Below are positions 3,321-64,000 of a DNA stretch of 64,000 nt, one piece after another. The translations under genes were made by a program, and so were the position numbers. This DNA is from Sabellastarte sp. h YS-2021 (taxonomy: Eukaryota > Annelida > Polychaeta > Sabellida > Sabellidae). Under the pieces are notes generated by a model that saw only the letters and a list, made by a program, of their open reading frames with translations, made no database searches and was not told the origin of the DNA. Numbering within the stretch: the first letter of the stretch is position 1; each line of letters opens with the position of its first letter. Location: contig OZ024928.1 of assembly GCA_964017235.1 (NCBI GenBank), forward strand, positions 81,401,566 to 81,465,565. The letters run 5' to 3'.

Positions 3321-3766
3321 GTAGCACTCCATCTCTTTGAGAGAACATGTAAACTGTGTAAAAAAGATGTAGAAGATGAGATACATTTTGTTTGTGTTTG
3401 TCCAGCTTTAGAGCTGATTCGTATGAAATATTTCAAAATTTTAAATATAGATAAATCTGAATTATTAATAGATCAATTATCAAGGGTATTAACTCATATG
3501 AATGTCAATATGGTTATTAATTTTATTTTTGATTTGTGGCAAGAAAGAAAAAGTAAATTATATTGTTAATTTTTATGTATTGAATTGCTGTCTTTATTTA
3601 CTGTATCTTACCTCAAAATATGTTTGCTCTGTTTGTTATTAACTCTCTATTTAAAGTGACTTATAAGCCCATATAGGGCTGGGTATTACTTCAATAGTTT
3701 TTGCATAATCCTTGTCAACATAATACATGTCACTATAATAAACTAATAAACTAAACTATTTAGTCC
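3321..3766 (+). mobile_element. LINE 3' end inside Helitron A copy 1 (second)
   Basis: The same LINE tail as at 1487-1922, carried along by the tandem repetition of the Helitron segment. Here the frame around RTCKLCKKDVEDEIHFVC is open to a stop at 3567-3569. It represents only about 80 residues of the LINE C-terminus, so it is a fragment, not a functional gene. Confidence 0.7.
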
Positions 3767-4922: not shown

Positions 4923-5186
4923 CTAGTTTTTTTTGCACCAAAATTTGAAATAAGATCCAAATTGACACTTCTTTCCTTTTCCTGTTGCTAGCACTTCCTT
5001 GATTTGATCATAACTTTCCTGGGTCACACAAAATTTATCTTGAAATTTCCCGCTAACACTATTAATATGCTGTTCAAGCAACTGATAGAAAACTGTTTTC
5101 TGATCCATTGTGATACTTTGCTTACAATGAAGGCAATAAAGCCAGCTCAAGGTTTTATACTTGTGAAGGGGTATACTGGATTGCAA
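4923..5186 (-). pseudogene. Integrase-like (KRBA2/Gypsy type) N-terminal fragment, cut by Helitron
   Basis: An 87-codon minus-strand frame containing MDQKTVFYQLLEQHINSVSG, YDQIKEVLATGKGKK and YFKFWCKKN. The spacing Y-x-x-I ... FKFWxKK resembles the segment before the zinc-binding domain in retroelement-derived integrases common in molluscs; this is recollection, not a search. The stop codon is supplied by the CTAG terminus of the Helitron, so the frame was interrupted by that insertion. The continuation should lie beyond the Helitron, outside the window. Confidence 0.4.
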
Positions 5187-17700: not shown

Positions 17701-20700
17701 TATATAATACATATATATGTCCTCTATAAGCATGCAGAAATTTGACCTTGAAGCTCTTCATTGAAGGTCATCCACTGACCGCCAAAGTACTTGACCGAGG
17801 GGCATTTTTGGCCTTTTTGGAGATATTTTCACACTTAACGCTGACTATATTGCATGGAAACTATTGAAAATGGCTTTGGAGGTTGAGTACATGATGGACT
17901 TCTGCCATCCAGGTTTACTGGTTACAGATCTTCATTTAAGGTCATCCACTGACCGCCAAAGTACCTGACCAAGGGTCATTTTTGGCATATTTGGAGATAT
18001 TTTCACACTTAATGCTGACCACATTGCTTGGAAACTATTGAAAATGGCTTTTGAGGTTGAGTACATGATGGAGTACCAGCATCCAGGCTGACCGGTTACA
18101 GATCTTCATTGAAGGTCATCCACTGACCGCCAAAGTACCTGACCGAGGGTCATTTTGGGCCCTCTATTTGTTTGTTTGTTTGTAAACAAGATAACTCAAA
18201 AACTGACAGACGGATTTTGATAAAATTTTCAGGACATGTCCAAATTGGTAAAAGGAAGATGTGATTAAATTTTGGGAGTGATCCGGATCACTGTCTGGAT
18301 CTTCTGGATCCATGAAATTTAATTTTTAAACACAGATAGCTCAAAAAGTTATGGGTGCATTTTGATGAAATTTTCAGAAGATGTCCTTATTTGGACGAGG
18401 AACAAGTGATTAGATTTTGGGAGTGATCCGGATCACTGTCTGGATCATCTGGATCCAGACTGCCAGATGTGTTTGTGTACAATATAGCTCAAAAACGGAT
18501 TTTGATGAAATTTTCAGGATATGTCTGAAAAGGTAAAAAGATGAAATGGTTGAATTTTAGAAGTGATCCGGATCACTATATGGATCTTCTGGATCCATGA
18601 AATGTAATTTTTAAAGACAGATACCTCAAAAAGTTATGGATGGATTGTGATGACATTTTCAGCAAATGACCTAAATGGTACAAGGAACAAGTGATTATAC
18701 TTTTGGAATGATCTGGATCACCGTCTGGATCATCTGGATTGAGCCTGCAACATGATTTTACGATGAATTTTGATGATATTTTTAGGCTATGTTACAAATA
18801 GTAAAAGGAAGAAGTGGTAAAAGGATGAAATGATTGAATTTTGGAAGTGATCCGGATCACTATATGGATCTTCTGGATCCATGAATGTAATTTTTTAAGA
18901 CAGATACCTCAAAAAGTTATGGATGGATTGTTTCAGCAAATGGCCTAAATGGTACAAGGAACAAGTGATTACATTTTTGGAGTGATCTGGATCATCTGGA
19001 TCCAGGCTTTCACATAATCTTGGAATGGATTTTACTATTTTCAGGATATGTTACAAATGGTAAAAGGAAGAAGTGGTAAAAGGAAGAAATGGTTCAATTT
19101 TGCGAGTGATCTGGACCACTATCTGGATCTTCTGGATCCGTGAATGTAATTTTTAAAGACAAATAGCTCAGAAAGTCATGAATGGATTTTTATGAAATTT
19201 TCAGGAAATGTCTTAAATGGGACAAAGAACAAGTGATTAGATTTTAGGAGTAATCTGGATCACTGTCTGGATCATGTGGATCCAGGCTGCCAGATGTGTC
19301 TGTGTACAAGATAACTCAAAAACTTATGGATTTCGATGAAATTTTTAGAATATGTCTGAAAAGGTAAAAGGATGAAATGATTGAGTTTTGGAAGCGATCC
19401 GGATCACTATATGGATCTTCTGGATCCATGAAATGTAATTTTTAAAGACAGATATAAGTGAAACAACTAGTGATTAGCTTTTGGAAGTAATCTGGTACTA
19501 TGGAGAATCCTGACCTGGTGCTCCAGGAAACAGGCTCAAGCCCGACACATTCACGCCTTAACTATGTCCCGTCCGGGGATACACTGCGTCGAGACGCAAT
19601 CTCTAGTTTCAAACAATTCCTCATTTCTCTCACTGATACAATTTGTAGGAGAGACAATGTCTTGAGACTGTGGCAATATCTGCTGGAGTTGCTCAGAGCT
19701 AGAAGGATGAGACTGGAATTGTCATTGCAGCTACAGAAAATATTCCAGGAAATGCTTTACATCCTTGACTGGATGGATGAAATTAAGGTGTGTTAGTTTT
19801 GTTCGATAATTGTTGTCATAGTGAATATTTTCACACAATAAAACATCTTATTGTTTTATAAATAAAACAAAAATGCTTTCATACAAAAAATCATGATGAA
19901 AATAAAATTTTTACTTAATTGTTAAAAATTATTAGAGAAAGATAAGGTGCACTACAGGCATCAGAAAGTGCAATAAGAGTGCCATAATCTATTGCATATT
20001 TGTGTTCACTGTCAAACATGTATGTTGGGAAGTCTAAGACGTATATAAGAAACATTGTGCATGTTTAGCAAAAAAACTTCCTTTCTAACATACTGTAAAA
20101 CACGAATTCTACACTAATTTCATTATAAAATTATAATGATTTAGCATTGATAAACAATATATTTTGTAATTTATCAATGAAAATCCTGATTGTTTTCAAG
20201 ATTTCTTGTTTGTAGGCTAATTATTACAAGAATGGCCATGTTTATTTGTGTGAGTTCATTAAACAAATATATGTGACATAAAGAACTTTAAGTTAACCTG
20301 TGTGTAGTTAACTCAGTCCACTGCCTAGTAATGAACTTTACCATCGATTGCAATTATATTGGGGGATTGTTTCCCCCCTGAGTGTAGAGTTTTGGAACAA
20401 AGGCCAGTTATGTACCAGCTGTCACTTGGCAGTGTAAGGAGATTATTGTCTAGTCTAAGTTAATGCCTGTATAGTAAACAGAATAAACACTTATTACACT
20501 CCCTTACACCTTTAAGTAGGATACTGGTCAATAGTCAGTATTTGATTATTTTATTGATTTTTAAAATCCTGATAATCACCAATGAAATCAAACATTTATT
20601 TTATTGATTTTTTTTCCCTGATCCTCCAAAAAAGAGGCTCACTGGCAGCTGAGAGGCTCAAAAAAGCGGCTCAGAGAGGATAAGCTTTTTGCACCTTAGG

Positions 20701-37147: not shown

Positions 37148-37199
<52 letters not shown>

Positions 37200-40100
37200 A
37201 GAAATTTCCTTGTGGACGCGATAACTCAAAAACAAATTAATATTTTTTTTTCAAACTTGGTACACATGTTAAGGGTGCCCAAAGGAAGATCCCTATTTTA
37301 AGGTGACCTTAAACTCCCAGTAAAAAAGAACTTATGGCCACCTTAAGGTCAGAAATTGCACTTTTGGCCACTTAGAGCCCTGTAGGTCACAAACTATGAT
37401 GCTCAGCTGGCTGAAATTTTACCTGACAACACATTAATATGTTCTTAGTACATGTGCCGAAAATCACGACTTTAAGTTGAGGAGAAAATTGTGTTTGAGG
37501 CCCATAAATACCCCCACTTGGGGATTTTTTGCTATACTTTTCACATATTTTGCCCTATAATTTGGAAGTGGTAATTCTGATGAGTCTCAAACTGCGCTAG
37601 GTATAACTTTGATATGTAATCCTTGTCTGTAGAAAATTTTAGGGCTGTAGGTTTACCCAAAGGGGTCGACTTAAGGTCTCAAAAGTGCCCACAGAGACCC
37701 AATTTATGCACTTTTTGCCACTTTCAAGCACTGTAGCTTTCAAACTATGTCTCTCATCTAAGTTAAATATCATCTGGGAATATATCTATGTGTTTTCTTA
37801 TATGTGCCCCAACATTTAGGCCTTTAATAGACAGTTAACCTGTGTATCAGGACCATAAACACCCACCCGAGTGACCCTTATAAGACATTTTTCACATCTT
37901 TTTCCCTGTAACTTGGAAATGGTAAGTCTGAGAAGTTTCAAACTGTATTAGATATATATTCTGTGTGTAATCTTAGTATGTAACAGATTTTAAGTCTGAA
38001 GCTTTAATTTTGAAGGTCAAATTGAGGTCTCTAAAAGGCTCCCAAAGACCCAATATTTGGACTTTTTGCTACTTTTAAGCCCTGTGACTGTCAAACTATG
38101 TGACTGATAGAGCTCAAATCCTATCTGGGAAGATATTAGTATGTTATTTATATATGTGCCAAAAATTAAGGCTTTAAGAAGACATTTAACCTGTGTATGA
38201 GGACCATAAATCCCCACCCGAGTGACCATTTTTAGACATTTTTCACATATTTTGCCCTGTAACTTGGAAATGGTAAGTCTAAGAAGTTTCAAACTCTATT
38301 AGATGCATATTCTATGTGTAATCTTAGTATGTGACAAATTTTAAGTCTGAGGCTTTAATTTGAAGGCCACATTTAGGTCTCTAGAAGGCCCCATAAAGAC
38401 CCAGTATTTGGACTTTTTGCCAATTTTAAGGCCTGTGACTGTTAAACTATGTGACTGATAGAGCTGAAATCTCATCTGGGAATACATTATTATGTTCTTT
38501 TTACATGTGCCAAAAATCAAGGCTTCAAGTAGACATTTAACCTGTGTATGAGGACCTTAAACACCCACCTGAGTGACCCTTTTAAGACATTTTTCACATA
38601 TTTTGCTCTGTAACTTGGAAATGGTAAGTCTGAGAAGTTTCAAACTTTATTAGATACATATTCTATGTGTAATCTTAGTATGTAACAAATTTTAAGTCTG
38701 AAGCTTTAATTTGAAAGCCACATCGAGATCTCTAAAAGGCCCACAGAGACCCAATATTTGGACTTTTTAACCACCTTTAAGCCCTGTGACTGTTAAACTA
38801 TGTGATTGATGGAGCTGAAATCCCATCTGGGAATGCATTATTATGTCCTTTTTACATATGCCGAAAATCAAGGTTTTTAGTAGACATTTAACCTGTGTAT
38901 GAGGGCCATAGACACTCGCCCAAGTGCCTTTTTGGACATTTTTTCCGTATTTTGCCCTGTTATTTGGAAATGCTTAGTGTGACAAGTCTTAAACTGTATT
39001 ATATATAATTTTTGTTTGTTATGTATGTCCCCCAAAAAGTTTCAGATCTGTTGTTTAATTGCTAAGGTCTCTTTAACAATTGTAAAATGCCCACAGAAAC
39101 CCAATTTATGGACATTATGCCACTTTAAAGCCCAGTAACTGTCAAACTATGTGGGTTATAGAGCTGAAATCTTTGAATTTTTAAAAGGAAATGCCTGTCT
39201 ATTTAAATTTTGAATATTAATAATGTTATGGCTATCTTAGTCTTTTAAGAACTTATTTTTGTGTGTTATACCTCTGCTTGCTGAGTTTTTAACTTTTTAA
39301 AATGAAACTGGTTAAACATATTCAAGTAGACAAAATGGACACTTTAAGTGAGCTTTAAGTCCCAATATTAATGAAATTATATCCTTATGTAGTAAAAGTA
39401 GGGGATTTTTAACCCTCAACTAGCCCAGTTTTATTCAACTTGCCTCAGTTAATTTTGACACAGCTCCTACAGTTATGAACTCATTTCAGTTGATAATCAC
39501 ATACTTAAAATTCTCAATTCTTTTTGTATTTGAGTACCCCTTTTATATAGATTGTTTGTTTACCATTTATGCATCCCCCACCCGGATTCCCCCCACCCAC
39601 CTCTGGGACCTCCAGCTATATTGAGTGACACTAAATAAACAAAGGTATTTAATGATATCAGATGAGAAACAAAGAACTCAATGGGGTTGCAGATCTTGTG
39701 TAATAGTGAGAGAGGTGTGGAGAAGGGGAGAGGGGTGGGGGTGGGAGGTGGTGGGCTTCATTACATATAACACAAAGGGGAGTCAGAACTGAGATTGTGT
39801 CACATATTTAGGTTGCATATATATGGACCACATATATAGGTATAGAGGAAATGAATAACTGAAAACAATTTGCAAATTCTAAAAATAATATAATAAAATA
39901 ATAATATAAATAATTTTTTTTTAAATAATATTTTATTTGTGAACAAATATAGAAACAGATATGCGCTTTTGGGATTATGAATTTTAGAATGGACATTGAA
40001 TCATCAATCATTTAAATACTTTGAAGGAAGATTGAAAAGTATGATGAGTTGAGTTAAAAATAATATTTTATTTGTCAACAAATATAGAAACAGATATGCT

Positions 40101-43100
40101 CTTTTGGGATTATTATTTTAGAATGGACATTCAATCATCAATCATTTAAATACTTTGAAAATAGGTTTAGAGTTATCATTGCAGGAAGATTGAAAATATA
40201 ATTTGAGTTATGTATTTGGCGTCTGGGGATACACCATCTTCCTTGGAAGATATAAACAGAGTAGATTGATGTGCTGAAGTTCATATAATAATGGGTAATT
40301 ATGTTTTAAAAAATTCCCGATCAAAACCTGTGGCGTGAGTGATGACCTGTCTGGGGATATGTTGGCGCCGAGTTGGCCCAATCTAGTTTTTTTAATATTT
40401 TTAACCTACTTTTTACACTTAAACAATTACTTTGTTACTTTATTTCATAATACCATTTGCAGGGCACAACTTTTTTGTCCTTTTCTTCTGTCAGCTTCGG
40501 AATATCTTTCGAACATGCTGTTCAGTTACCATTTACTGTATTTCTGTACAGCCCTTTCCCTGATAATTATGCTTTCCTCTCATTATCACCATCACAAATC
40601 AAAAACATTCAGTGAGCTGACACAGTGCCCGTTCACGGGCACTCTCCTCTTGTTTGAACAAGTTGTTATATTTTACTGAATAGGCAACATTTATGAGTTT
40701 GTTATGGTAATTGGAAAACTTTTCACATGCAGATTCTTTAACAGCTGTGTACAGGTCACACACCCCAGTAAATTTTGAAATGATTGTTGGCTTTGAACAT
40801 ATATTACTAGTTTGTGTTCCCATTTTATCTAATCCACATTATTTTTCCCAGTTCAGTAAATAAATTATAAAAATAACATGATTTAGCTGTAAATTGTAAG
40901 CTGTATTTGCTGAAGTGTCCACTGATTTTATTTTCCTGATTGATCAAGGCAGGTAACAAATAGATTCTTAGGTGAACAAAAGTTCATTGTTTGATGTTTT
41001 TCATTAGGATGTGACAGATGAGCTGCAAAACTACCAAAGTGTCATCCACGCCCTGCATCAACAGGCCACAGCTCTGGGTGAACAGGTAAGATCACTTATT
41101 TCTGTTGGATTCTTTTAGACACACACTATCACTTTGCTGTGGTAAAATCATTTGGTTGTGTCATATCATACATAGTTCTTATTTGTAATACACCAAAAAG
41201 TCTAGGCAAAATGGTAAAATTATATTTTAAATGGAAAAAAGTGTTAAAGATTTATAAATAATTTATGATTTGTATGTATTTTCTTCAGTGTAATTTAAAT
41301 AAATTCTGTTATAATTACTGTCACAGATTAGGTAATTTCGGATGAGATCTTCAAAAATAGGAAACTAGTTGAAGATCTTGTCATTGTTTTCCTCACACAC
41401 AATTTATCATTTTGTCATAATAGAGTAAGAAAAGCCAGTGGTATGCATGACAACACAGGCTTCCTCTATTTTACCTGCCATACTAATAAACAGGAGATGC
41501 TAAGTGATACTGAGATCTGCACTAAATGCAAATTTAGGTAAATGAAAGTCAAGGTTGTAGAGATGCTGTGTGTTTGGCATGTGAAACATTGGGACTAGTA
41601 GTTTGAATGGCTCAGTTTCAAGTATCAGTAATTTTCTGCAATCTCTTTCAATCTCAGTGTGAAGTAAGTTGTCCAACACTACTTGAAGCCTAAAAGTCCT
41701 GAAGTAGAGCTAACTTTTCAATGATTTTGGTCTAGGACCGTGAAAACCCTGAGGTGTTAAACCAGCTTGGATTGATAGACAGAAGGTACCAAGAGCTGCT
41801 TGAGTTGGCTGCCATTCGCAAGCAGAGGCTGCTTGATGCCCTGGCTCTCTACCAACTCTACAATGAGGCAGATGGTGTGGAGCAATGGATAGCAGAGAAG
41901 GTAAGACTGAGTTAATTTAGGCGGGGAACAATATAAAAGTTAACAACAGGGTGATCTGCTTTACTTGTTGACAGAAGGAGTAAATTTCATTTTAAACATG
42001 TTACTATCTGTAACAAAAACTATGAATATTTCAGTATGACTTAAATGTGCATGAAATTCTATTCTTAGTTTGTTATGAGAGTGCCTGATTTTTGCAGAAC
42101 AAGCTGCTGAACACAATGACACCCAGTGATGATGTGGAGGAGATGGAGATACTGAAGGCTAGGTTTGACACTTTTGACCAGGAGATGAATGCCAATGCAG
42201 ACAAAGTCTCCAATGTTAATAATCTTGCCAGACAGCTTATCCAGAATTCCCATCCCAATTCAGATGATGCAATGGCAAGAGAGAACCAGGTAAAATAATT
42301 TATGTGGGGAAAAATAGTAGGTTTATGACCACAGGAACCAGGCACACTTTTTCTCCATGAATAGACTTTAGAAAACAAAGTAGAATTAACAAAATGTTCT
42401 GAATACTCTATTATCTTGCCAGGAAGTGAGTAGTATAGATCTTTAATTTGTTCATATCCTCATCAGAATATCATAAGGTAGAATTCATACCTCAAAACAA
42501 AATCTCTACTGCGTAATCTGCCCAAATATTCTCCGAGTTTCATGTGATTTCTTTCACAGTTTGAATGTTGGATGTCTCAATTGAGTCAGTACCCATATGC
42601 TAAAACAGAATGATAATATTAGTGGGTAGTCATTTGAAACAATACAGAAAGTAAGAGATGTTACAGTGAGTTGTATTTTATTGCACCTAACTACCTTGAT
42701 TTATTCTCACTGATGTTACTGATTTGCCTCAATATACAGGTGACCCAGAAGTGGGAGGAGTTGAGGCAGCTTGCAGATGACAAGCGTGGTGCATTGAACC
42801 TGTCCCATGAGGTGAATACTTGGCACATGGAATGCCAGGAAACCATGACGTGGATTAGGGAGAAGGCCAAGCTCATCGAATCCACAGATGAACTCGGCAA
42901 TGACTTGTCAGGTTGGTAAAAATAATGGTTTTGTGTGGAAATTGAGATGTTGCATAATTTCTGTTGATAACTTGTCAGTTGTAAATCACATGACAAAGAT
43001 TCTATGTAGCATGGATGTAGTGATAAGTTTTATCCAGCTTCATCATATTTGTAGCTTCAAAAACCATCTATTTGCAGTCAGTGTTGAAATCTTGAGGTAA

Positions 43101-46100: not shown

Positions 46101-49100
46101 CCGTTTCAACTTAACATAAATTGTTAAATTTGTCGTCTGCTGGGTTTCTAAACACAATTTGCATGGTGTGTGATGAATTCAGAACAAAGTAGATAAAATT
46201 AATTTTCTTCAAAGCAGACAAATTCTTAATATGCTTTAATAACTCTTGCACAATATAAATTAACAATCAATGTCAAAGGCTTTTATAAAACATGGTAGAC
46301 ATGTAGAAATGTCATATTTAATAAAAAAAACATTTAGAAAATATGATGATCATGTTTAGGACTAAATTTACCTCAATAAATAGGGACAGATTGCAGTATA
46401 TTGATATGATTTCTACTTTCAGCATTCCCTCGAGCAGGCTGAGAATCTGATCAAGCAGCACGAAGCATTTATTACCACCATGGACACCAATGATGAAAAG
46501 ATAAACACTGTCCTCAACTTTTCTGACCGCTTGGTAGAAGAAAATCACTTTGCCTCAGAGAAGATCAAGGAAAAGGCTGATGGCCTCCGGGAAAGGTGTG
46601 ACTAGACAATGTTGTTTTATTCAGTTTTTAGTACTACATAAACTGTCTAGTTCTGATTAGTATCGTACACAGCCCAGTGGTTGTTCAACTCAATGTACAC
46701 ATAATTGTAATGACAGCACAAAAATCTACCCCACAAACCAATAATAAAAAGTGTGAAACAGATAAATAAGGTGAAGATAATGTTTTATGAAAATAAGATA
46801 ACAGTTGATTTAATTGAGTGTCATCTACTGTATTTTAGGAGGGATTCTAACCGAGTGCGTGGTAATGAACAGCTTGACAGACTGAAGGACTCCTTGAAAC
46901 TACAGCAGTTCTTGCAAGAGTGTGATGAGGTGAAGTCTTAACAAGTTTGAGATATTTTAACATATATCAAAAGGTTGTAACTTTAACAAACTTCACAAAA
47001 TATGGTTATGCAAGTATTGGAGTTCTCTATACTTTGTATACTCTCATGCAGTACCTTAATGGGTGTAATTTTGTAAAAGTTTTAATGAACTAACTTTTTA
47101 AATGATGTGATTATTATTGTAGCAGGCAAACAATTTTCAAATGATAAGAGTGGCTCATGTGGGAAATACTGATGGCCACTCCCGGTATTACCCTTTTAAA
47201 AGTTCCCTATCAATCCAACTTTGTCAAGTTTCGTTTGTTCTAAGGTTTGAGATTTGTTTTGTCATATGTGGGATGGCTTGTCTTTCACCGTTTCAGCTGA
47301 ATGACTGGCTTGGAGAGAAAATGATCACTGCACAAGATGAAACATACAGAGATGCAAAGAACATTCATAGCAAGTACATGAGACACCAAGCATTTGAGTC
47401 TGAAATCTCTGCTAATAAGGAGAGGCTGGACAAACTAGAGGATGTGAGTGCTCTCCTACATTATAATGATTTGCTTTTGCAAGAAATGTCACAGGAGGAA
47501 TTGGTGACATTGTGGCAGAACATTTTGGCATTCCCCCCCGAGTTCCATCCAGCTTCTATGGCTACATGTTGGAAGCATGAATGATTTAATCCAATGAACC
47601 CCTTGCTGTTAATACAAAGGTTATAAAAGTGCAACCAAATTTGACATTAAAGTGTTGTAAGTCATACTTATGCTGATGTAACTTTTGTAATATTGTTATG
47701 ACTGAAATGATTGCCGGTCCGATTAAAGGGTTATTGTGGGGAATATGCAATTATATTTTTTTTTTCTTAAAATGTTTGGTTAATGCGTAACAAGACATTG
47801 CTGGTTGTTCAGGGCTTGTTGATTTGGAAGAGCTTGAAAATAATTAATTTAAGGGATTAAAAGCAACTCAAGTTTATATTTGCTTTGTCATGTATATCTG
47901 TTGTGGACTTTTTTTCCCACAGGAGGGGCAGAAGTTGAAGGATGAAAAGCCAGACTTTGATGAAACTGTTGACCCTAAACTGGAAGAACTGAAAGCTCAG
48001 TGGGCAGAACTTGAAAACACCACCCAGAATAAAGGGGAACGACTTTTCGATGCCAATAAACATGTATTGTATGAACAGAGCTGCGATGATATTGATGGTT
48101 GGATTAATGAGATTGAGTCTCAGATTGTCACTGAAGATGTGGGCCATGATCTAACCACTGTCAACCTTCTTGTACAAAAACAAAATGTAAGACTTTATGA
48201 CACACAGAAATTTCTATTATATGTAACACAAGTTGAGTTAAAATGAGAAAGAATGAAGAAAGTCTTCTTTTGAGAGAGCAATTTTAGTGAGCAGTATCGC
48301 CAAGCTCCACTGGTTTTATGTTTCAAACGTGACATCAAATTGGAGTACCCAACTAAATTAAAAGTATTTTCAATAACATCAATTAACTTTTGTAGTTTTT
48401 AAATTTATTCTAAGTAGTATTTATATCCCCAGACGAAAGTCGGGGATATATTGGATTCAGGTCCGTCCCGCCGCCGCCGCCGCCGCCGCAGAAATTTCCT
48501 TGTGGACGCGATAACTCAAAAACAAATTAATATTTTTTTTTCAAACTTGGTACACATGTTAAGGGTGCCCAAAGGAAGATCCCTATTTTAAGGTGACCTT
48601 AAACTCCCAGTAAAAAAGAACTTATGGCCACCTTAAGGTCAGAAATTGCACTTTTGGCCACTTAGAGCCCTGTAGGTCACAAACTATGATGCTCAGCTGG
48701 CTGAAATTTTACCTGACAACACATTAATATGTTCTTAGTACATGTGCCAAAAATCATGACTTTAAGTTGAGGAGAAAATTGTGTTTGAGGCCCATAAATA
48801 CCCCCACTTAGGGATTTTTTGCTATACTTTTCACATATTTTGCCCTATAATTTGGAAGTGATAATTCTGATGAGTCTCAAACTGCGCTAGGTATAACTTT
48901 GATATGTAATCCTTGTCTGTAGAAAATTTTAGGGCTGTAGGTTTACCCAAAGAGGTCGACTTAAGGTCTCAAAAGTGCCCACAGAGACCCAATTTATGCA
49001 CTTTTTGCCACTTTCAAGCACTGTAGCTTTCAAACTATGTCTCTCATCTAAGTTAAATATCATCTGGGAATATATCTATGTGTTTTCTTATATGTGCCCC

Positions 49101-52100
49101 AACATTTTGGCCTTTAATAGACAGTTAACCTGTGTATCAGGACCATAAACACCCACCCGAGTGACCCTTATAAGACATTTTTCACATCTTTTTCCCTGTA
49201 ACTTGGAAATGGTAAGTCTGAGAAGTTTCAAACTGTATTAGATATATATTCTGTGTGTAATCTTAGTATGTAACAGATTTTAAGTCTGAAGCTTTAATTT
49301 TGAAGGTCAAATTGAGGTCTCTAAAAGGCTCCCAAAGACCCAATATTTGGACTTTTTGCTACTTTTAAGCCCTGTGACTGTCAAACTATGTGACTGATAG
49401 AGCTCAAATCTTATCTGAGAAGATATTAGTATGTTATTTTTATATGTGCCAAAAATTAAGGCTTTAAGAAGACATTTAACCTGTGTATGAGGACCATAAA
49501 TCCCCACCCGAGTGACCATTTTTAGACATTTTTCACATATTTTTCCCTGTAACTTGGAAATGGTAAGTCTAAGAAGTTTCAAACTGTATTAGATGCATAT
49601 TCTATGTGTAATCTTAGTATGTGACAAATTTTAAGTCTGAAGCTTTAATTTGAAGGCCACATTTAGGTCTCTAGAAGGCCCCATAAAGACCCAGTATTTG
49701 GACTTTTTGCCAATTTTAAGGCCTGTGACTGTTAAACTATGTGACTGATAGAGCTGAAATCTCATCTGGGAATACATTATTATGTTCTTTTTACATGTGC
49801 CAAAAATCAAGGCTTCAAGTAGACATTTAACCTGTGTATGAGGACCTTAAACACCCACCTGAGTGACCCTTTTAAGACATTTTTCACATATTTTGCTCTG
49901 TAACTTGGAAATGGTAAGTCTGAGAAGTTTCAAACTTTATTAGATACATATTCTATGTGTAATCTTAGTATGTAACAAATTTTAAGTCTGAAGCTTTAAT
50001 TTGAAAGCCACATCGAGATCTCTAAAAGGCCCACAATGACCCAATATTTGGACTTTTTACCACCTTTAAGCCCTGTAACTGTTAAACTATGTGATTGATG
50101 GAGCTGAAATCCCATCTGGGAATGCATTATTATGTCCTTTTTACATATGCCGAAAATCAAGGTTTTTAGTAGACATTTAACCTGTGTATGAGGGCCATAG
50201 ACACTCGCCCAAGTGCCTTTTTTGACATTTTTTCCGTATTTTGCCCTGTTATTTGGAAATGCTTAGTGTGACAAGTCTTAAACTGTATTATATATAATTT
50301 TTGTTTGTTATGTATGTCCCCCAAAAAGTTTCAGATCTGTAGTTTAATTGCTAAGGTCTCTTTAACAATTGTAAAATGCCCACAGAAACCCAATTTATGG
50401 ATATTATGCCACTTTAAAGCCCAGTAACTGTCAAACTATGTGGGTTATAGAGCTGAAATCTTTGAATTTTTAAAAGGAAATGCCTGTCTATTTAAATTTT
50501 GAATATTAATTTTTATTGCGTTAATACATCCTATCCAATGGACAATAGCTTATCCGGTCGGCGCAGACCGGCCCGCCAAACGTCAGAAAAAGACGTCCTG
50601 TGTCTCCACCGGCCAGGCCGGTCCAGTGCTGTGCACTCGCCAGGTGGCGTGTAGTACTTCCTTCCTGTCTAGACAGCGTGACGTCATAGCATCTTTTTCG
50701 TTTGGCGCATGCTTGTGTGCACGGAATAATTTTATCAGAAGTTTATCTTCAGTTTTCATTGTTATTGGTGAGAATTGTGCTTTATATTTGTGCTTACTTT
50801 ATCTTGGGAGTATATAGACCTGTTAGAACTCTGTTTTTTACTGCCATCAGATCGTTATGTCTTCCCCGGGCCAGAAACATGGTAACTGTGGACACATCAT
50901 GGCTAGTTTTGACAGCCATTGTTTCTGCGCGCGCTGCAGGGAGAAGGGGAAAGGTTCAGACCCTTGCGTTTCTAACAACGATTGCCAGGCTTGTAACTCT
51001 TTGACTGAGGAACAACGCGTTCAGTTGTCTACCCCCAGTTATAGATTGAAGAAAGAAAAGCGCGAATTAAAGAAAGCGTCAGATACTCCCACTAAGGACT
51101 CAAACAGTTCCACCCTCATTGACCCGTCCTCTGTGACGGTAGTGGGGGCTGTGGACGGCCAAGGGATGGTACAGTCCCCAGGCTCGAGTTCCTCTACCAA
51201 GAAGAAGAAATCTTCATCTTCTGACAAGAAACCCACTATCAAACATTCTAAGTCTTCAGAGAAGCCGGCCAAGTCGCCTACCACTCTCAGATCCTCAGCT
51301 GACGCAAGGATTGATGAGCTCGACCAGAAATGGTCGGATAGGTTTAACAGACTGGAGGCTCTCTTACTTGCAAAGACTATGGACAAAGAACCCACCTTTT
51401 CAACAGTTAAAGTGGCTCCTACTTCTTCCGCTCCTCCTGGCATTGCTAAGTCTTCTGAGCCGTTTATCAGACCTTCAGATGCCATTCCACATTCAGATTT
51501 GGCCGGTAACCGTTCCTCTCCACAGAGTCAGGCTACCGACAAGTCGCACTCTTCATCCGCTGATGACAAGCTACCTTCTTCAGATTTGCATGGTGTATCT
51601 CAGACTGCTCACAGAGCTCAGTCGACCAGCAAGTCGCTTAGGGAGAAATCGACCACATCAGATCTGACTGGTACCGACCCACCCTCTCATCAGGTTCCCA
51701 GCAGGTCGTCTGTCACACCGGCCGGCCTTCACAGCCCACCGGCTATGGACACGGACTCGGACTCAGATTTCTCCGACCAGCCCCCAGTGGACATTTTCGT
51801 CGAAGAAGGGGAATTGTCCGACCAGGACCCAGATGCTGCTTCTGCTGACCCCGACCAGGTCCTCTCAGAGGACCAGAATTACAGGGAGACCATGAGAGGC
51901 ATTAGGTCATACATGGGCTGGTCCCATATCCCTGATTTGGATACAGCGACCACAGCATCTGATGATAACCCGTTCGCTGGGCCTCAGTCTCAACCTACAG
52001 GGAAAATCTCAGTCAATATGCCAACCGACGAGTGGTTGTGCAAAAAGATGGGTAGGCTGAACCTAACACTGGTGGAGGGGTATCCCTCACGCAGCTCGGA

Positions 52101-55100
52101 GGCAGGGGGGCTTCTAAAGGACCAATTTGTCAAGCCGGTCCGTTCACAGGCCAAATGGTACGGTTTTGTATCTGACCAACAGAAGGGAGACGCCACTAGT
52201 GAGAAAACTGTTAGTTCCTGGAGTACCGATGCTTCAAAGATTAACAACACATACAGTCGCATTGCTAAAGCGGCAGGTATCTCCTCAACGCCTCCAGCCT
52301 CCCGTCAGATTTCTCAAGACAATCTTAGACGTTGGGAGAAATCGGCTAGGGAAGCCTCAACTATCTGTAATCAGGCGGCTGGATTTAACAGATGTTTGTA
52401 TAGAGTTCAAGAAAATATGAAGGGACAAGTTAAAACACTCAAAACAGAAATGGCCAAAGGAAAGTCTTCCGCTAAGGCAACCGGCTCACTCGACGAGTTG
52501 CAATTTTTGATGAACTTTAATGCCAGCATCACGCAGGCCATGGCTAAGACACTAGAACATTTAAGTGATTTTGTTTTCGTGTCAGTGGCAAATACTACCT
52601 TGGCTCGCAGAGATTCATATCTTTCACATCTCAAAGCAGGTATTAAACCAGATACCTTGGCCTCTCTCAGGACTGCACCTCTCCACATTCCAATGCTCTT
52701 CCCTGATGAAGCCCTCAGGCAAGCCGAACAGGACATAGCCGCTTTTGAAAGCAAGGGCCAACTTCACACTGGAAAGAAAGGTCGGTTCCACCCCTATGAT
52801 CGCCCCGACAAGCGTGGAGATAACAGGAAGCAGGAACGACCGGCATGGAAGAACATTGGGCAGCGCGGACAGGGCAGGAAACAGAAGGGCAAGGCCGCTT
52901 ACTATTCCTCGCGACCAGCCAAGGGCCAGCAGTCCTATAAATGACAGTTATTGTGTAAACAGAGTGATATCAGGACTGCTGGCCGGGAGCACTTTGCAGA
53001 GACAAACAGACACTTTTGTAGACTTAAATGTTGTACCTTGTGTTCCTACTGCGCCCGGGCATTCGCAAAAGAAAGAAATAAGTCCCGGGGCAGTAGTTTG
53101 TCATTCTCAAAGAAATTACAAAATAAAATCTGTGAAGCTTGCTTCTTGTGTCACTCTGTTATCTTGTGTCAAACCTGTAGTAAATGCCAGAGATGTTGCC
53201 TCAAATCCTCCTGTAGGCGCCAGACTTCAGAGTTTCTGGCAGATTTGGTCGAAGCTAGGGGCCAGTTACAAGGTCGTCCAGATCTTAAGGTCGGGTTACA
53301 CCCTCCCCTTTCAGAACAGGCCCCTCCTATCAAGACATCCAACGGTCATAAGCCGTTATGTAAACCACCACAGGAACAGCTACCTGTTGGAGGCTTTACA
53401 TCAGCTTATTTCCAAAAATGCAGTGGAGCCAGTACGAAATCCAAACTCTCTAGGTTTCTTCAACCGACTTTTCCTGGTCCCCAAACCCAACGACAAATGG
53501 AGACCCATTCTGGACTTGAGCAATCTAAATCCCTTTCTAAAAGTGGAGAAGTTCAAGATGGAAACACCGGAAACCATCAGAACTTCTCTTCAAAGGGGAG
53601 AATGGGTAACCTCTGTAGATTTCAGGGACGCTTACTTCCACATACCTATACAGGAACAATCAAGGAAATACCTGAGATTTCATGTCCAGGGTCAGACATA
53701 TCAATTCAAGGCTCTTCCATTTGGTCTGTCCACAGCACCATTGGAGTTCACGGTAATAGCCAAGGAAGTAAAGTTGATGGCCATACACAAGGGTATAAGG
53801 ATCCACCAGTACCTAGACGACTGGTTGGTGAGGGCCATGTCCTACCAAGTCTGTATCCAGCACACAAGAGTTCTGCTGGAAATGTGCCAGGAGCTAGGCT
53901 GGGTAGTCAACAGAGAGAAATCAGAACTGGATCCAAAACAAGTCTTCGACTTTGTAGGATACCAGTTCGACCTCAGATCCGGTCGGGTCAGACCCACACC
54001 GGACCGGTGGCAGAATCTCAAAGCAAAGATTCAGGCTATCTTGGCCCGACCGACCTGTCCGGTCCGGCAGTTTATGTCTTTGATAGGTCTCCTAACAGCC
54101 ACAGAAAAACAAGTTCACCTCGGCCGACTCCACATGAGACCCATTCAGTGGCACCTCAAAAACAACTGGAGGGTACCGGAATCTTTGGACAAGATCATCC
54201 CTATACCCAGGTCCCTGCACCCTCATCTGCAATGGTGGTTAGACGAAAGCAATGTGCTACAAGGCCAACCATTACACCCAGTAGAGCATGCTCTACAGAT
54301 CTTTACAGACGCATCAAAAGAAGGGTGGGGCGCTCACTTAAACGAGCTCACTGCAAGAGGCCCTTGGTCGGTTCCGGAAAGCAAACTGCACATAAACTAT
54401 CTAGAGTTGAAAGCAGTCTTTCTAGCTCTCAAAGAGTTCCAAGAACTATGTACAGGCAAGATAGTTCTAGTGGCATCCGACAACACTACAGTAGTGGCTT
54501 ATATAAACAAAGAAGGAGGTATGAGGTCGGGCCCTCTATGTGCCCTACTGTGGAGGATCCTGACCTGGTGCTCCCAGAAACAAGTGACGTTAAAAGCCCG
54601 TCACATCCCGGGCCATCTGAACGTGATAGCAGACAAGCTATCCAGACTAGGTCAGACCATACAGACAGAGTGGTCCCTCCTCCGGGAGGTATTTCTAAGC
54701 ATATGCAAGAAGTGGCACCAACCTCAAGTAGATCTGTTTGCCACAAGATTCAACCACAAACTTCCTCAGTTTGTCTCTCCAGTCCCGGACCCTCTGGCTG
54801 TAGCAGTGGATGCTCTCACTCTGCCATGGGAGGACCTGGACGCATATGCCTTTCCACCGACCTCCATCTTGGGCAAAGTAGTGGAGAAACTACTGGACTC
54901 CCGGTACCAGAGAGTTATTCTGATTGCCCCCGGGTGGCCCAACATGCCCTGGTTCTGGGACTTGGTGGCCATGTCCAGTCAAATTCCCCTCAGCCTACCA
55001 AACCTGCCCAATCTCTTGACACAGCCGTTCAACCAGATCCCTCACAGGAATCTGACAAACCTGAATCTCCATGCATGGCTCCTAGAGCCACAGCAATCAA

Positions 55101-56211
55101 AGAACAGGGTTTCTCTAAGGCAGTGGCAGCAAGAATTGAGGCTCCTCAAAGGAAATCAACCAGATCAGTCTATGAGGCAAAGTGGACCATTTTTACAAAG
55201 TGGTGCATCACTAATCAGGTGGACTTCGGGTCACCACCTATAAAGTCAGTGGCTGACTTCCTTCTATACCTCTTTGAGGTCAGGAAACTTCAGCCCAGCA
55301 CCATTGATGGATACAGGTCTGCCATTGCTGATAAACTGGGTAACACCACAGGCAATATCAGCAAGGATGATAATCTCACCCGTCTCTTAGATAGTTTTCA
55401 CAGAGACAGACCCAGAGGGCGGAGGGGTATACCCTCCTGGAACCTTTCTCTGGTTTTACACCAGTTAACAAAGGCTCCCTTTGAACCTCTTAAGGAAGCT
55501 TCAATGAAACATCTGACTTTCAAAACTGTCTTCCTTTTGGCCCTGGGTTCTGGCAAGAGAAGAAGTGAGATACACGCATGGCAGCATAAGAACATCAGAC
55601 ACCAGTCGGACTGGTCTAAGGTGTCCCTGTTTCCGTCCCCCAGCTTTCTTTCCAAGAACCAGCTGGCCAAAGAGGGCCCGGAGAGTGTAGCCCCAGTGGT
55701 CATACCAGCCCTGGCTCCCACTCTGGATAGGTCCCTCAAGTCTGACAGAACTCTCTGTCCAGTCAGAGCCTTGCGCTACTATTTGGACAGGACATCAGAC
55801 CTTAGGCAGGGCAAAGAATTGGTTTTTGTCTCCTTTAAGAAAGGCTTCGACAAAGACATATCACCTGCCACTATCTCCTCATGGATCAAACAAACAGTGA
55901 TCCTATGCTATGAGCTCTCGGATCATCAGGCCCACACCTTGCATCAGGTCAAAGCCCATGATGTCAGGGCCTTTGCTGCCTCTAAGGCCTTCCAGTCGGG
56001 AGTCTCCTTAGAGCAGATCCTGTCAGCCTGCCACTGGAAATCTCATAATACCTTCACTCAATTCTATCTGAAGGATGTGGCTTGGGCTGACTCAGAGCTC
56101 TACCATCTTGGACCGGTTGTGGCTGCCCAGCAGATCCATCAACAGGCCAGTACCTAGAGGAGATGTGTACATATGTAAATAGTTGTACATAGTTGTATAT
56201 ATTGCACATAT

Positions 56212-56249
<38 letters not shown>

Positions 56250-59200
56250 TCTGGACGTGCTTCCTTCGGGAGGATTACTTTATGGGACTGAACTCATCCC
56301 TCTCTTCCCCTACCTCAGAGCAGGTCTGTTAAAAAAAGGGGGGGGGAGCAAGGTCGACTGACGGTTCAATTCTTTGTAACCGGATGATGATATTCGACCA
56401 TAGCCTTAAGGGTCATCGACATCAGGTCTGACCAGGCTTTAAAGGAAATAGTTCGTTATTCCAATAGGAGTTCAAGGCTAGTCCCTAGTAACTTACCCGC
56501 CGACCAAGCGGTAGTTATTCAGCTATTGTCCATTGGATAGGATGTATTAACGCAATAAAATTGCAAATTTAATAAGTAAATTAAATTTTTATAAGTTAAT
56601 ACCCTATCCAATGGACACACAAGGCCCTCCCACCGGCCCCGCTTTCAGCTTACTAGGGGTCTAATTGGTTTAGACAACGAAAAAGATGCTATGACGTCAC
56701 GCTGTCTAGACAGGAAGGAAGTACTACACGCCACCTGGCGAGTGCACAGCACTGGACCGGCCTGGCCGGTGGAGACACAGGACGTCTTTTTCTGACGTTT
56801 GGCGGGCCGGTCTGCGCCGACCGGATAAGCTATTGTCCATTGGATAGGGTATTAACTTATAAAAATTTAATTTACTTATTAAATTTGCAAAATGTTATGG
56901 CTATCTTAGTCTTTTAAGAACTTATTTTTGTGTGTTATACCTCTGCTTGCTGAGTTTTTCACTTTTTAAAATGAAACTGGTGAAACATATTGAAGTAGAC
57001 AAAATGGACACTTTAAGTGAGCTTTAAGTCCCAATATTAATGAAATTATATCCTTATGTAGTAAAACTAGGGGATTTTTAACCCTCAACTAGCCCAGTTT
57101 TATTCAACTTGCCTCAGTTAATTTTGGCACAGCTCCTACAGTTATGAACTCATTTCAGTTGATAATCACATACTTAAAATTCTCAATTCTTTTTGTATTT
57201 GAGTACCCCTTTTATATAGATTGTTTGTTTACCATTTATGCTCAACCCACATCCCCCACCCGGATTCCCCCCACCCACCTCTGGGACCTCCAGCTATATT
57301 GAGTGACACTAAATAAACAAAGGTATTTAATGATATCAGATGAGAAACAAAGAACTCAATGGGGTTGCAGATCTTGTGTAATAGTGAGAGAGGTGTGGAG
57401 AAGGGGAGAGGGGTGGGGGTGGGAGGTGGTGGGCTTCATTACATATAACACAAAGGGGAGTCAGAACTGAGATTGTGTCACATATTTAGGTTGCATATAT
57501 ATGGACCACATATATAGGTATAGAGGAAATGAATAACTGAAAACAATTTGCAAATTCTAAAAATAATATAATAAAATAATAATATAAATAATTTTTTTTT
57601 AAATAATATTTTATTTGTGAACAAATATAGAAACAGATATGCGCTTTTGGGATTATGAATTTTAGAATGGACATTGAATCATCAATCATTTAAATACTTT
57701 GAAGGAAGATTGAAAAATATGATGAGTTGAGTTAAAAATAATATTTTATTTGTCAACAAATATAGAAACAGATATGGTCTTTTGGGATTATTATTTTAGA
57801 ATGGACATTCAATCATCAATCATTTAAATACTTTGAAAATAGGTTTAGAGTTATCATTGCAGGAAGATTGAAAATATAATTTGAGCTGTGTATTCGGCGT
57901 CTGGGGATACACCATCTTCCTTGGGGAGATATAAACAGAGTAGATTGATGTGCTGAAGTTCATATAATAATGGGTAATTATGTTTTAAAAAATTCCCGAT
58001 CAAAACCTGTGGCGTGAGTGATGACCTGTCTGGGGATATGTTGGCGCCGAGTTGGCCCAATCTAGTTTATAAAATAGTAATATTGTACATATCTAGTCTA
58101 ATCTAATCTACTGCTTTGCAGGCGCAATGCATATCCTTATTGAGTACAATAACGGTGACCTTTATTTTTGTATGATAAGATTCTGGAAAGTCAGTTGAAG
58201 GTCAAGAAGCAACAAGTGCAAGAGTTGGAAAACCAGAATGGTCATCTAGATAGCATTGATGAAGAAAAGAGAGAAGTTATTGTGGCTAAGAAAGTCCGAG
58301 TAGAGGAGAGGTACTGCTTTCTTGTGTTGGTTTTTAACTCAAGTAAGCATAGATTAGATGGAAATCTTCAGAAGATATTTTAACCATAGCTGTTCTGATT
58401 AAATTAATGTTTGTTCAGGCATTTCTAGTATAAAATTGGTGTTAAAAGAATTGTGACTATAATTTGTGAAAAATATTGAAACTTTAGATTTATTGCAATG
58501 CTCTTACAGACTTTCTTATACTGTGTGTTTTTGCACCTGTTTTAGATTCCAGAAAATGCTGGATCCATTGGTCATGAGAAGATCAGCACTAGAAAGGGCT
58601 AAGACGGTACATCAGTTCCTCCGAGATGTGGAGGATGAAAAAATGTGGATTCAAGAGAAAATGCCTCAGGCATCATCCACAGACTATGGCAATAGTTTAT
58701 TAAGTGTTCAGATGTTACAAAAGAAAAACAAGTCATTACGAAATGAAATTGATGGTCATCAACCACGGATACAAGGTGTAATCAATGTTGGTGATAACCT
58801 TATAGAAGAAGGACATCCAAGTTCAGAACTCTTCCAGTCCAAAATTGATGAACTTATCGCAAGTTGGGATGAACTGCAAAATGCTGTTGATAGCAGGAAG
58901 CAGAACCTGGAACTTTCGGAAACTGCACAACAGGTAATGTAAACAGTTAATTGGAAAACCACTGTTCAGAACATGTTCATCCTTTCAAACTTTCACAGTT
59001 TGTCAGGTTATAACATGAATAATCATACAGTAGTTGGCTGTGTGGGTTGCTATTGATCAGGACAAACATTTGCACGTCCTTCAGCAGGAGTTGTACATTC
59101 TTCTTTATCAATTCATCTGTTTTTAGTACTTTTTTGCCATCTTTAAGATGTAGCTTTGGATGTCCCTTGTGATGATCATCAGATTATCTAGGAGTCGAGA

Positions 59201-60494: not shown

Positions 60495-63400
60495 TTTTAT
60501 TGCGTAAAATAGCCTTACCTTATCCTCACAAATGCTTACTTGGTTTTGTGGAGGCAAAACGCGGCGACCAACAAGAATATTTAAAAATTATTCTTGTTCG
60601 AGAGGTGAACCCCGTAGTTAGTGATAGGTGCGCATGCGCACAACACATTGTCGGTTGGACTTGTCGAGAGATCCTCATTCAATTTTTGGTCGTCGAGGAG
60701 GCAACACGTGAAGTTTTTTCAACTCTGCCCGTTTCCAAGATGGCAGATGCATTCTTTAGAATTCATAGAGTTCGTGCTAAGAAGAAAGAAGTTTAAGACT
60801 TCCTATTCTACAGATCTGAAGTACAATATTACATGCTGAGGGTTGAGTAATCCATGACAGCATTCTTAGATCCCCCTTGGCTGTATAACAGTCGTTGGTA
60901 GAGGATCTACTACAGAAGATTCTTCAATTTTTTAGTTCAAGCTTCCTTCCTCTTCATTTATGAGGGATGTCCAACAGAAGTCTTTGAACTGGCCACATTT
61001 TCCTGAAAATGACAGCATTAAGAGGCCTGCTGCGATTGAAAAACAGCTGGCAGTAGAACTACTAGAGCTTGCTTTTCCAACACCAGATGACATTTAGATT
61101 TGATAGCTGGTCAGATTACAATTTGTTTTCTGGGGTCAGTAATTAAACCTCCAGAAGGCTGGTAGCTTCTCCATTTGGTGAAAACAAAGAAGATGACAAT
61201 TCATCTCGATTCCAAAACATTTATCAGTGCTTCTAATGGGAAGCCCCTCATTGAGGTCCTGGTGAAGTTTATGAAGAAGGTTGGCAGTAAAACATTCATT
61301 ATCTGAAGGATCTTCCCCTCTAAGAACGCAAATTGCTTTCAGAGTGTGGAGTTCAATAATACTCTACCATAACAGTATTTAGCAGTTTTTTCTGTAGCCT
61401 GGAAAACAGTCAGTCCTAGAAGATCTATTACTACAGAGGTTTTATCAAGGTTTGCCATCACCAGGCATCAAGACAGTTACATTCCTCCATTGCCTTGTGT
61501 TAAATCTACAACTGGCTTGGGGACCATTTACTAGTTCTTCTATTTATAGTTCATTACAGAGAAGATTACATATAAGTTTTCCCACCATTATCCTCAATGA
61601 AATGGGGATTCTGGTGTAGTAGAAGAAATACGTATAAATAGCTATGTTATATGAAAATATTTTTGCCATCTCAGAGTTGTGCAGTATTTGAATGGGTGCT
61701 TTGTAGCTGTCCAATCAAAACTCCCCTTTCATGTGGCTCTACTGCAGGTGCTACAGACAGGAAACAATCCACCATGCTGCTGAAAATATTGTGTTACATT
61801 TACTATGTTATTTTACACACAATGTCTTCTGTAAATGACTACAAGTCGCTGGATTTTCTCAGTAAAATAGTTTCCTCTATCATATCTGACATAATACTGT
61901 TTATCTTAGATGGAAACATTTGCTTTTTCAAAGACATGGATCGTTGGTGTGTTGTGTGCTTTATAAAATGTAAAGTACGGATAGCCTACACAAGAAGTTT
62001 AGTCTATTCAAGGAAGTTAATCAGCATTGGGCAAGGTTAGTGGGTGGATAGGTGACCATTCCTGTCATTTTCTTTGCATTAATCTTACAATATCATTGGC
62101 CAGTGAGGATCTCTGTGTCCTGTACATGCATACGTCTCTCCAAGCTGTGAATGGAGTCGACAATTTTTATGAAGAAACTCGGTCTTAAATGGTTAATGGC
62201 CAGTTTCCACAGATCTATATACCAGATACAAGAGTTGTGCAAATCTTAGGACGGGATTATCGAATAATACTCCAGTCGAATCCGCCCATGTCTGTACATC
62301 CCATAATTTAAAGCGGTTACAGACAGGGAAAACATGGCTACCTAAGAGTGTCGCAAATGCTTCAAAAAGGCACAATTTACTACCTCAAGGATTGCACAAT
62401 TCCAGGTTTTACAGCAGATTATTTCTTGTACCAGAACCCGGCAATAAATGGCGTTCTGTGATAGATCTCAGTGTCCTGGACAAATGCCTGCTAGTTCCAA
62501 ATTTTCAAATGGGGACAGCAGTGATATTCGGAAACTCGGTCATAAAAGGAGAATGGCTAGTTTCGATAGACCTGAAAGATGCGTTCTTTCACGTGCCCAT
62601 ACACCCAGATTCTCAACATTGGCTATGTTTCCATGTAGACAAGCAAACGTATCAGTTCAAAGCACTGCCATTGGCACCGCTATAGTTCATGCGGATTGTA
62701 AAAGAGGCACGTTCTTCAGTCTCGCGGAATTCGAGTTCACCAATACCTGGACGACTGGTTGTTAAGAGCAAATACCAGACACCAGTGTCAGCTCCACACA
62801 AAAGAACTCATCCATGAGATTCAAGAACTCGGCTTTGTGATTAACTTCGAAAAATCAGAGATCGAACCTACACAAAAAATCGACTTTCTGGTTTAAATTT
62901 TGACTTGATTCAGGGAAAAGTCTTTCCAACCGAAAATAAGTTGAAAATTCTAGAAAAATCTGTTCAGGACATGGAGATCGCATCACAGACAACCCCAAGG
63001 TTGCTTATGTCCCTGATAGGTGTACCAGCATCCCTAGAAAAGACAATACCAATGGGTCGGTTACGTATGCGCCCTTTCCAGTGGTACCTAAAAACAAACT
63101 GGCAGTATCCCCAGTCACTAGACCTGAAGATTCCTGTTTCAAACTTTCTGAAAAGTCATCTTCAGTGGTGGAAAGATCCAAAAAATCTAAAAAATGGGTT
63201 ATCCTTTTCATCCAATGAACACAATACCCTTATTTTCACAAATGCATCAAATTAAGGTTGGGGAGCTCATTTAGAAAACATGACAGTCAGTGGCAATTGG
63301 ACAGATCAAGAAAATTGCTTCATATCAATGTCCTTGAGTTAAAGGCAGTGTTTCTGGCCTTAAAAGAGCTTTCAAAACAAATTTCTAGACAAAAGGGTTC

Positions 63401-64000
63401 TGATAGCAACACACAATGCTACTGTAGTCAGTTATCTGAGCAAACAAGAGGGAACACACTCTTGGGACAGGTGTCTCCTGGTTTGGCGCTTCTTGGCCTA
63501 CTGCAATCCTCGAAACATACTCATTAGAGCCAGACACATTCAGGGTTGCCTCAATGTCATAGCCGACAGTCTCTCCAGGAAAGACAAAATTATTCAGACA
63601 GAATGGTCTCTTCATCCTCAAATATTCAGTCTAATTTGGCAAAATTTGGCACACACCAATGGTCGACATGTTTGCTACCAAATTGGATCACAAACTACCA
63701 ATCTATGTCTCACCAGTCCCAGATGCAAATGCTATGAACATAGATGCATTGGACATCTCCTGGGAGGGTCTGGACGGCTATGCCTTTTGTCCTGGAGCAC
63801 TCATACCAAAAGTGATACAGGAAATGAACACCTACAGGTGCAAGATGATAGTAGTTGCACCAGGGTAGCCCAGAATGCATTGGTTTTGGGATCTAGTGAA
63901 TCTGTCAACCAAACCTCCATTACAACTATCACACTGGCCTCATCAGTTAAAGCAACCATTCAGTCAGAAGTTCCATCAGAATCTCATGTATCTGAATCTG
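60495..64000 (+). pseudogene. Second DIRS-type element, decayed, runs off the window
   Basis: Starts TTTTATTGCGT, identical to the first 11 bases of the intact DIRS element. RT remains are at about 62392-62685 (FLVPEPGNKWRSVIDLSVLD, WLVSIDLKDAFFHVPIH, QFKALPL); the thumb region continues at 62905 in another register. RNase H is near 63234 with IFTNASN, where the first catalytic Asp is Asn, followed by a stop. A Dam-like tail is at 63659 (MFATKLDHKLP, YAFCPGA). Many frameshifts and stops. No ORF1 can be recognised between 60495 and 62390, which appears shortened compared with the intact element. The recombinase would lie beyond 64000. Confidence 0.85.

Follow-up and report, generated by a model that had tools for sequence, protein, structure and literature searches.

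DIRS elements are a widespread order of retroelements in which two steps, the expression of a recombinase from overlapping frames and integration, have been little tested. The passages on structure in the DIRS1-like survey of Piednoel et al. describe gag, a pol with reverse transcriptase (RT), RNase H and methyltransferase domains, a tyrosine recombinase, inverted terminal repeats (ITRs) and a double internal complementary region (ICR), with no target duplication (PMC3266345, Piednoel et al. 2011). Here we describe an element of this kind in a stretch of 64,000 nucleotides (the window) from the annelid Sabellastarte sp. h YS-2021 (contig OZ024928.1, positions 81,401,566 to 81,465,565). It occupies 50511..56890 on the plus strand, 6380 bp delimited by its ITR and ICR matches, by empty paralogous sites and by sister copies, and we are highly confident that it represents an autonomous DIRS1-like retrotransposon, recently inserted and apparently intact, of a recently active family. 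The superfamily is known, and the element is a new, young and probably autonomous member of it. Its anatomy, the constraint across its family and its seamless insertion are directly visible in the assembly, and its interest lies in what the family suggests, from sequence, about expression and integration.

Two further bodies of work bear on these steps. In the parts of the literature on stop codon readthrough that concern sequence context, type I is UAG-CARYYA and type II is UGA-CUA or UGA-CGG, the latter mostly with a 3' structure; the described contexts are CARYYA after UGA or UAG and UGA-CUA, and UGA-CARYYA works in a reporter (PMC3542737, PMC4132726). Tyrosine recombinases, as portrayed in passages on integron cassette recombination, usually act on inverted arms that flank 6-8 bp (PMC4792948).

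The element combines an RT and RNase H of the Ty3 kind, a tyrosine recombinase in place of a DDE integrase, ITRs and ICRs with insertion free of duplication, which bears out the DIRS identity that an earlier sequence-only reading of the window had proposed from the ITRs, the ICR, the RT-RNase H pol and the recombinase. The conserved parts of the left (50530..50702, plus strand) and right (56676..56848, minus strand) ITRs are 173 nt long and agree at 173/173 positions, as that reading had seen in giving about 170 bp without a mismatch. Outside them lie a 19-nt stretch unique to the left end (50511-50529) and an extension unique to the right end (56849..56890, plus strand), which contains the hairpin AAATTTAAT-N6-ATTAAATTT. 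On the minus strand, one half of the ICR (56521..56560, 40 nt) is the exact reverse complement of the left end (50511-50550, 40/40) and the other (56561..56617) that of the right end (56834-56890, 57/57); the exactness and the 40-nt left half reported before stand, and the right half is corrected from 56 to 57 nt. The two halves abut, and their border (56560/56561) encodes the circle junction GCAA|TTTT. Folded as single-stranded DNA, the ICR (56521-56617) reaches a z of -10.5 and forms two hairpins at its tips, one of which spans the circle junction, a strength of folding due mostly to its being built of inverted repeats.

ITRs with divergent outer ends, a right extension and a double ICR are common to this element and the DIRS1-like elements of the survey passages, and the long overlap of pol and recombinase is found in half of the 28 elements tabulated there (PMC3266345). 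In contrast, 6380 bp exceeds the lengths in that table (at most 6283), and the ICR halves abut without the 3-bp overlap common to both ends, the right trinucleotide being target (PMC3266345). The 3-bp circular junction is not identical to the target of the window copy; because the published table lists unequal ends in accepted members, we treat such identity as common rather than defining.

Three long frames are open. The first (50857..52944, plus strand) encodes 695 amino acids, ends in UGA, has no Pfam gag match and is called gag from its position. The pol frame (52739..55243, plus strand; 834 codons stop to stop) is +1 relative to gag and holds the RT, the RNase H and a Dam-like region, and the recombinase frame (52945..56157, plus strand; 1070 codons) shares the reading frame of gag and is open from the first codon past the gag stop, with the recombinase domain beginning at about 55075. 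Pfam places RVT_1 in pol (E 3.7e-21) along with weaker RNase H-like matches, the best PDB-sequence matches of pol are retroelement RTs, including Ty3 and retroviral ones, and the recombinase matches Phage_integrase at E 8.2e-6 (26.1 bits against a cut-off of 27.1). The YLDD of the RT, four acidic residues of the RNase H and the R, HxxR, W and Y of the recombinase, which we take to be catalytic, are all in place, as the sequence-only reading held; it had also called the element intact, and the frames are open and the ends complete at 50511 and 56890. One point weighs against the domain assignment, namely that the Dam match, the sole Pfam match of the part of pol after RNase H, is weak (E 0.19). 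No Rfam match reached gathering scores, and no relatives of pol were found in the viral or bacterial/archaeal contig collections searched. The 3' region carries a run of 29 A at 56217-56245, near which many of the length differences between copies may fall.

The insertion can be read against its own empty sites. The joined flanks match gap-free over 120/120 positions at three places in the window (39162..39281, plus strand, 1064-1183 and 2898-3017) and at one place beside the copy L009, so the insertion added exactly 6380 bp, with no duplication and no loss. The target consists of a left part (50502..50510, plus strand), A at -9 and -8 followed by the spacer, all target bases, and a right part (56891..56893, plus strand; +1 to +3), which is AAT here and NTT in most copies. 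It reads ATTAAT|AATG and differs at both border bases from the circle (A at -1, T at +1), so that the breakpoints of the window copy are unambiguous. Gap-free empty sites of at least 99% identity and without target-site duplication were found for 6/21 copies examined whole, the window copy and five more, the sites of these five lying within the sequence retrieved. Two copies, L025 and L026, apparently occupy a single repeat site with opposite orientations, each matching the same place at 77-79%.

The flanks themselves belong to a repeated block: 37178-40389 corresponds to 48468-50510 plus 56891-58068, and also to 1-4935, all near-identical (mostly 98-99%) and containing a 351-bp tandem array, with one block split by the element. 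Spectrin-repeat exons extend across 16470-60233 (plus strand) of the window, with several tandem arrays between exons; since they flank the element on both sides and on the same strand, it is most likely located in an intron.

Searching the 1.786-Gb assembly (647 contigs) yielded at least 40 copies, the window copy included, at 97-100% identity over the first 1001 bp among the best 40 of 3841 candidates, and 12 further right ends elsewhere. The near-identical copies that the sequence-only reading had proposed to look for thus exist, at least 39 of them. Twenty were fetched whole and make, with the window copy, a set of 21. All 20 share the same ITR and ICR structure, and 18/20 align end to end, the others being L025, with an insertion, and L026, with a deletion. 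Recurrence of the left part in the 40 scored copies, together with the ITR and ICR structure in 20/20, means that the structure is not a product of chance.

Identity of the ITRs alone only bounds the age of a copy; the case for youth is made by the sister copies and the empty sites. Left and right ITRs differ at 6 of 3633 compared columns in the 21 copies, plus one indel in L016; they lack mismatches in 16/21 copies if that indel is ignored, and lack any difference in 15/21. The mean pairwise difference among the 21 is 0.64%, and the fetched copy nearest to the window copy differs from it by 0.27%. Indels aside, the window copy has 7 private substitutions relative to its 20 sisters, two of which are a paired ITR position. 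This paired change predates insertion, leaving at most 5 later substitutions, and the earlier description of the element as very young is upheld. At element positions 94 and 103, ITR variants agree between left and right within copies, as expected if the ends are copied in each cycle. The ends plus the ICR (194 nt) contain no variable site in 21 copies, where 5.5 are expected (P 0.004). Against this picture, two copies outside the 21 vary at the left end (G to A) without the ICR mirroring the change. Covariation of left end and ICR was rejected as support for templating, because the G to A copies keep the old ICR and the change is read as a post-insertion one at a CpG.

In the known model, the ICR would serve to complete the ends of the complementary DNA (cDNA), yielding a circle with the junction TTTGCAA|TTTT, which the tyrosine recombinase of the element would then insert. 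We collected 49 left and 47 right junctions, with both ends in 44 copies, from the 21 whole copies, 14 copies sliced at both ends, 12 from the right-end search and 5 with the left end only. A full right-end match was the criterion for choosing the 14 and the 12, so the right end is selection-free only in the first 21. One repeat flank is common to L009 and L084. The target has A at -9 in 44/49, A at -8 in 42/49, T at +2 in 46/47 and T at +3 in 44/47, each with P below 1e-14 relative to flank composition, and A at -7 and T at +1 are also favoured. The first four letters form the motif AA-N7-NTT, symmetric about -4/-3, with 6 nt (-6 to -1) between its arms as a spacer. In the circle junction, as read from the ICR, identical AA and TT letters enclose the palindromic spacer TTGCAA.

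The two ends of the inserted copies treat this spacer differently. All left ends start TTTT (49/49) and all right ends read TTTGCAA (47/47; 21/21 in the first 21 copies). Left ends of the 12 were first found with a string containing TTTT, and an anchor beyond it recovered TTTT in 9/12; L066, reading TTTT at the slice edge, is excluded, and in L061 and L064 the left end falls outside the slice. The circle spacer is always present at the right end and at the left end in 0/44 copies. Where the target base at +1 is not T, the left end keeps the T of the element and the right end keeps the target base, in all 17 copies informative at both ends (9/9 in the first 21, 2/2 and 6/6 in the later sets). 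If both strands were exchanged and then segregated at random, the two arrangements should each occur; with one arrangement only, the exchange of a single strand seems to be inherited.

We propose that the recombinase acts on two inverted AA-N/N-TT arms flanking the 6-nt spacer, and that only the strand cut at the border of spacer and right arm, the minus (cDNA) strand, would be inherited, replication resolving the product as in integron cassette insertion. Tyrosine recombinases cut each strand at the 5' end of the spacer, and by this polarity the inherited cut would fall on the minus strand, the strand of the first cDNA. The uniform junction pattern supports this reading of integration, and on balance we lean toward two inverted arms with inheritance of one strand's exchange. 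Two observations pull the other way: all four target letters occur together in 30/44 copies, the full motif being absent in 14/44, and the junction palindrome alone does not exceed shuffles (P 0.13). The alternative is the double-strand reaction of the published model, at a 3-bp sequence identical between circular junction and target (PMC3266345, in the passages on integration), with biased mismatch repair at the ends. It agrees with the 26/47 targets that read TTT at +1 to +3, like the circle, but the other 21/47 differ, the AAT of the window copy among them, and repair would have to favour the element on the left and the target on the right in every informative copy, so we regard it as possible but rather unlikely.

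The published ends are informative about polarity. In the survey table, eight elements have unequal end trinucleotides and a 3-nt junction; in seven, the start is the complement of the junction, and in the eighth, AcasDIRS1, which has a left extension only, it is the end (PMC3266345). The seven of eight starts, with the exception accompanying a left extension, indicate the same polarity as here.

How the recombinase is expressed is the second problem posed by this family. The gag stop and its 3' context, UGA then CAGUUA (52942..52950, plus strand), fit the CARYYA readthrough context and are identical in 21/21 copies. Twenty further slices, hand-picked rather than random from 150 recombinase matches for varied long open frames, all have UGA followed by CAGUUA, CAAUUA or CAAUCA, making six distinct contexts with that of the window copy (which L128-L131 share; L114, L121 and L131 have an extra upstream stop in the gag frame). 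Two of the six hexamer positions vary, the R and one Y, both staying within CARYYA, while 36/48 positions beyond the hexamer vary; the hexamer changes alter pol residues. The longest open frame among the 150 matches is at most 1164 amino acids, so in none of them has the gag stop become a sense codon while everything else stayed intact.

Beyond the stop, the recombinase frame crosses 2.3 kb that also codes for pol without a stop: 0 in 765 codons of the window copy, compared with 33.7 in shuffles of synonymous pol codons. Two elements of a second lineage (L090 and L091, with pol 52-53% identical to the window copy) have 0/683 and 0/688, compared with 34.4 and 32.0, and stops in the third frame number 62-68 in each of the three elements. 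In this lineage the gag stop is UGA-CUA in 10 copies and UGA-CUG in one, counted from 5/6 elements fetched (the gag end of L093 is not visible) and from 6/20 slices in which it was recognised (L094, L104-L107 and L113), the other 14 being dropped. Both a conserved leaky stop context and a frame open beyond it, as expected of programmed readthrough, are therefore present; constraint on protein was found only in the recombinase part far downstream, not directly after the stop. Openness of the pol frame inside gag was discarded as uninformative, 0 stops being expected there.

We propose that ribosomes failing to stop at UGA-CARYYA would read on in the gag frame, across a pol overlap that is otherwise unconstrained, and make a Gag-spacer-recombinase fusion. 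Sequence constraint supports this reading of recombinase expression well, and a Gag-recombinase fusion made by readthrough is probable. Several findings weigh against it. L090 and L091 were shuffled because they had been seen open beforehand, L092 stays open across the overlap and meets a stop within the recombinase, L088, L089 and L093 have frame breaks, and the lineage-2 gag ends are close relatives rather than independent cases. In 19/21 copies (without L025 and L026), 40/41 pol-synonymous changes alter recombinase-frame amino acids in the overlap, with 36 expected, and the absence of new stops, with 3.2 expected, is weak alone; because its amino acids are unconserved, the overlap is at most a spacer, and openness is what is kept. 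RNA structure after the gag stop did not exceed shuffles in the three elements tested. In a different tyrosine recombinase element (L134, L135), the upstream frame, probably gag, ends in UAA, and RT and recombinase share a single open frame of about 1007 codons, as read outside the middle part of the element; readthrough is accordingly not general, and this element was set aside since it does not test readthrough.

Alternatively, the recombinase may be translated from its own message or start, through an internal ATG (e.g. at 55075), reinitiation after the gag stop, or splicing. ATGs are present in the frame, in L090 and L091 one lies at residue 17-18 past the gag stop, where reinitiation is possible, and the unconserved overlap would suit such a start. 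However, in the window copy the 183 codons before the first ATG of the recombinase frame contain no stop where 11.4 are expected, a start at 55075 would need no open frame upstream, and CARYYA stays intact while its surroundings vary, which makes an independent start unlikely and readthrough the reading we prefer.

Pol, in the gag+1 frame, could be entered through a +1 shift close to the gag stop codon or on it. In the subfamily of L114 and L115, a TAG in the pol frame lies 83 nt before the gag stop, which excludes an upstream ATG and implies that pol is entered after the TAG. The leaky stop AAA-UGA-CARYYA might then act as a single switch, with termination giving Gag and readthrough giving Gag-recombinase across a frame whose openness would serve translation alone. 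As a tentative whole, we hypothesize that the leaky gag stop governs Gag, Gag-recombinase and +1 pol, and that the recombinase joins only the minus cDNA strand to palindromic AA-N7-NTT targets, replication finishing the reaction.

The element might instead be an inactive relic that only looks intact. One recombinase change private to the window copy is a K to R, and a single assembly cannot show activity. But its frames are intact with at most 5 substitutions since insertion, and the sister pair L013/L014 has no substitution between its members, so that a relic seems improbable. The three long frames are kept in 17/21 copies, and in these 17 (L015, L025, L026 and L028 dropped as broken) the ratio of nonsynonymous to synonymous substitution rates is 0.18 for gag, 0.19 for pol and 0.14 for the recombinase past pol, values of 0.14-0.19 with which competence for transposition, as it may exist here, is compatible. 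PAT, Ngaro and Crypton elements share the tyrosine recombinase with DIRS. Membership in one of these groups, which have the same recombinase type in the survey passages (PMC3266345), is extremely improbable, because the repeats are inverted rather than split direct (no split direct repeats of the PAT/Ngaro kind occur among the 20 direct families listed of 24 in a repeat search), an ICR is present, and pol is of the RT-RNase H kind with a weakly Dam-like end.

Elsewhere in the window lies a second, broken DIRS-like pol (62197-64000, plus strand; 38-51% amino acid identity), truncated where the window stops, which seems to have a great many relatives (35,687 candidates at first look, the best 150 scored). 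A 37-nt stretch at 19496-19532 (plus strand) is 89% like pol and may be left over from an older copy.

Four findings go beyond the sequence-only reading, namely the empty sites, the target motif, the one-strand pattern of the junctions and the conserved leaky gag stop. Both expression and integration lend themselves to simple tests in this family, which offers precise empty sites and dozens of copies that are nearly identical, the majority of those examined having open frames. The stop and 3' context of the family are those of known readthrough types, as the passages on context define them, but the 3' structure of type II was not found in the three elements tested (PMC3542737, PMC4132726). Unlike in known readthrough, Gag would be joined to the recombinase across a region coding for pol in another frame. 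The passages of the DIRS1-like survey make no mention of an in-frame gag UGA-CARYYA (PMC3266345), and a literature search, with subscription papers mostly outside its reach, returned no report of readthrough in DIRS elements. Integration resembles integron cassette recombination, as outlined in the passages on that system, in its tyrosine recombinase, the exchange of one strand, a three-base microhomology and replicative resolution, although integrons are bacterial and use folded attC sites, and single-strand use is here deduced from the junctions only (PMC4792948). If this likeness holds, the family would provide a eukaryotic counterpart of integron single-strand integration.

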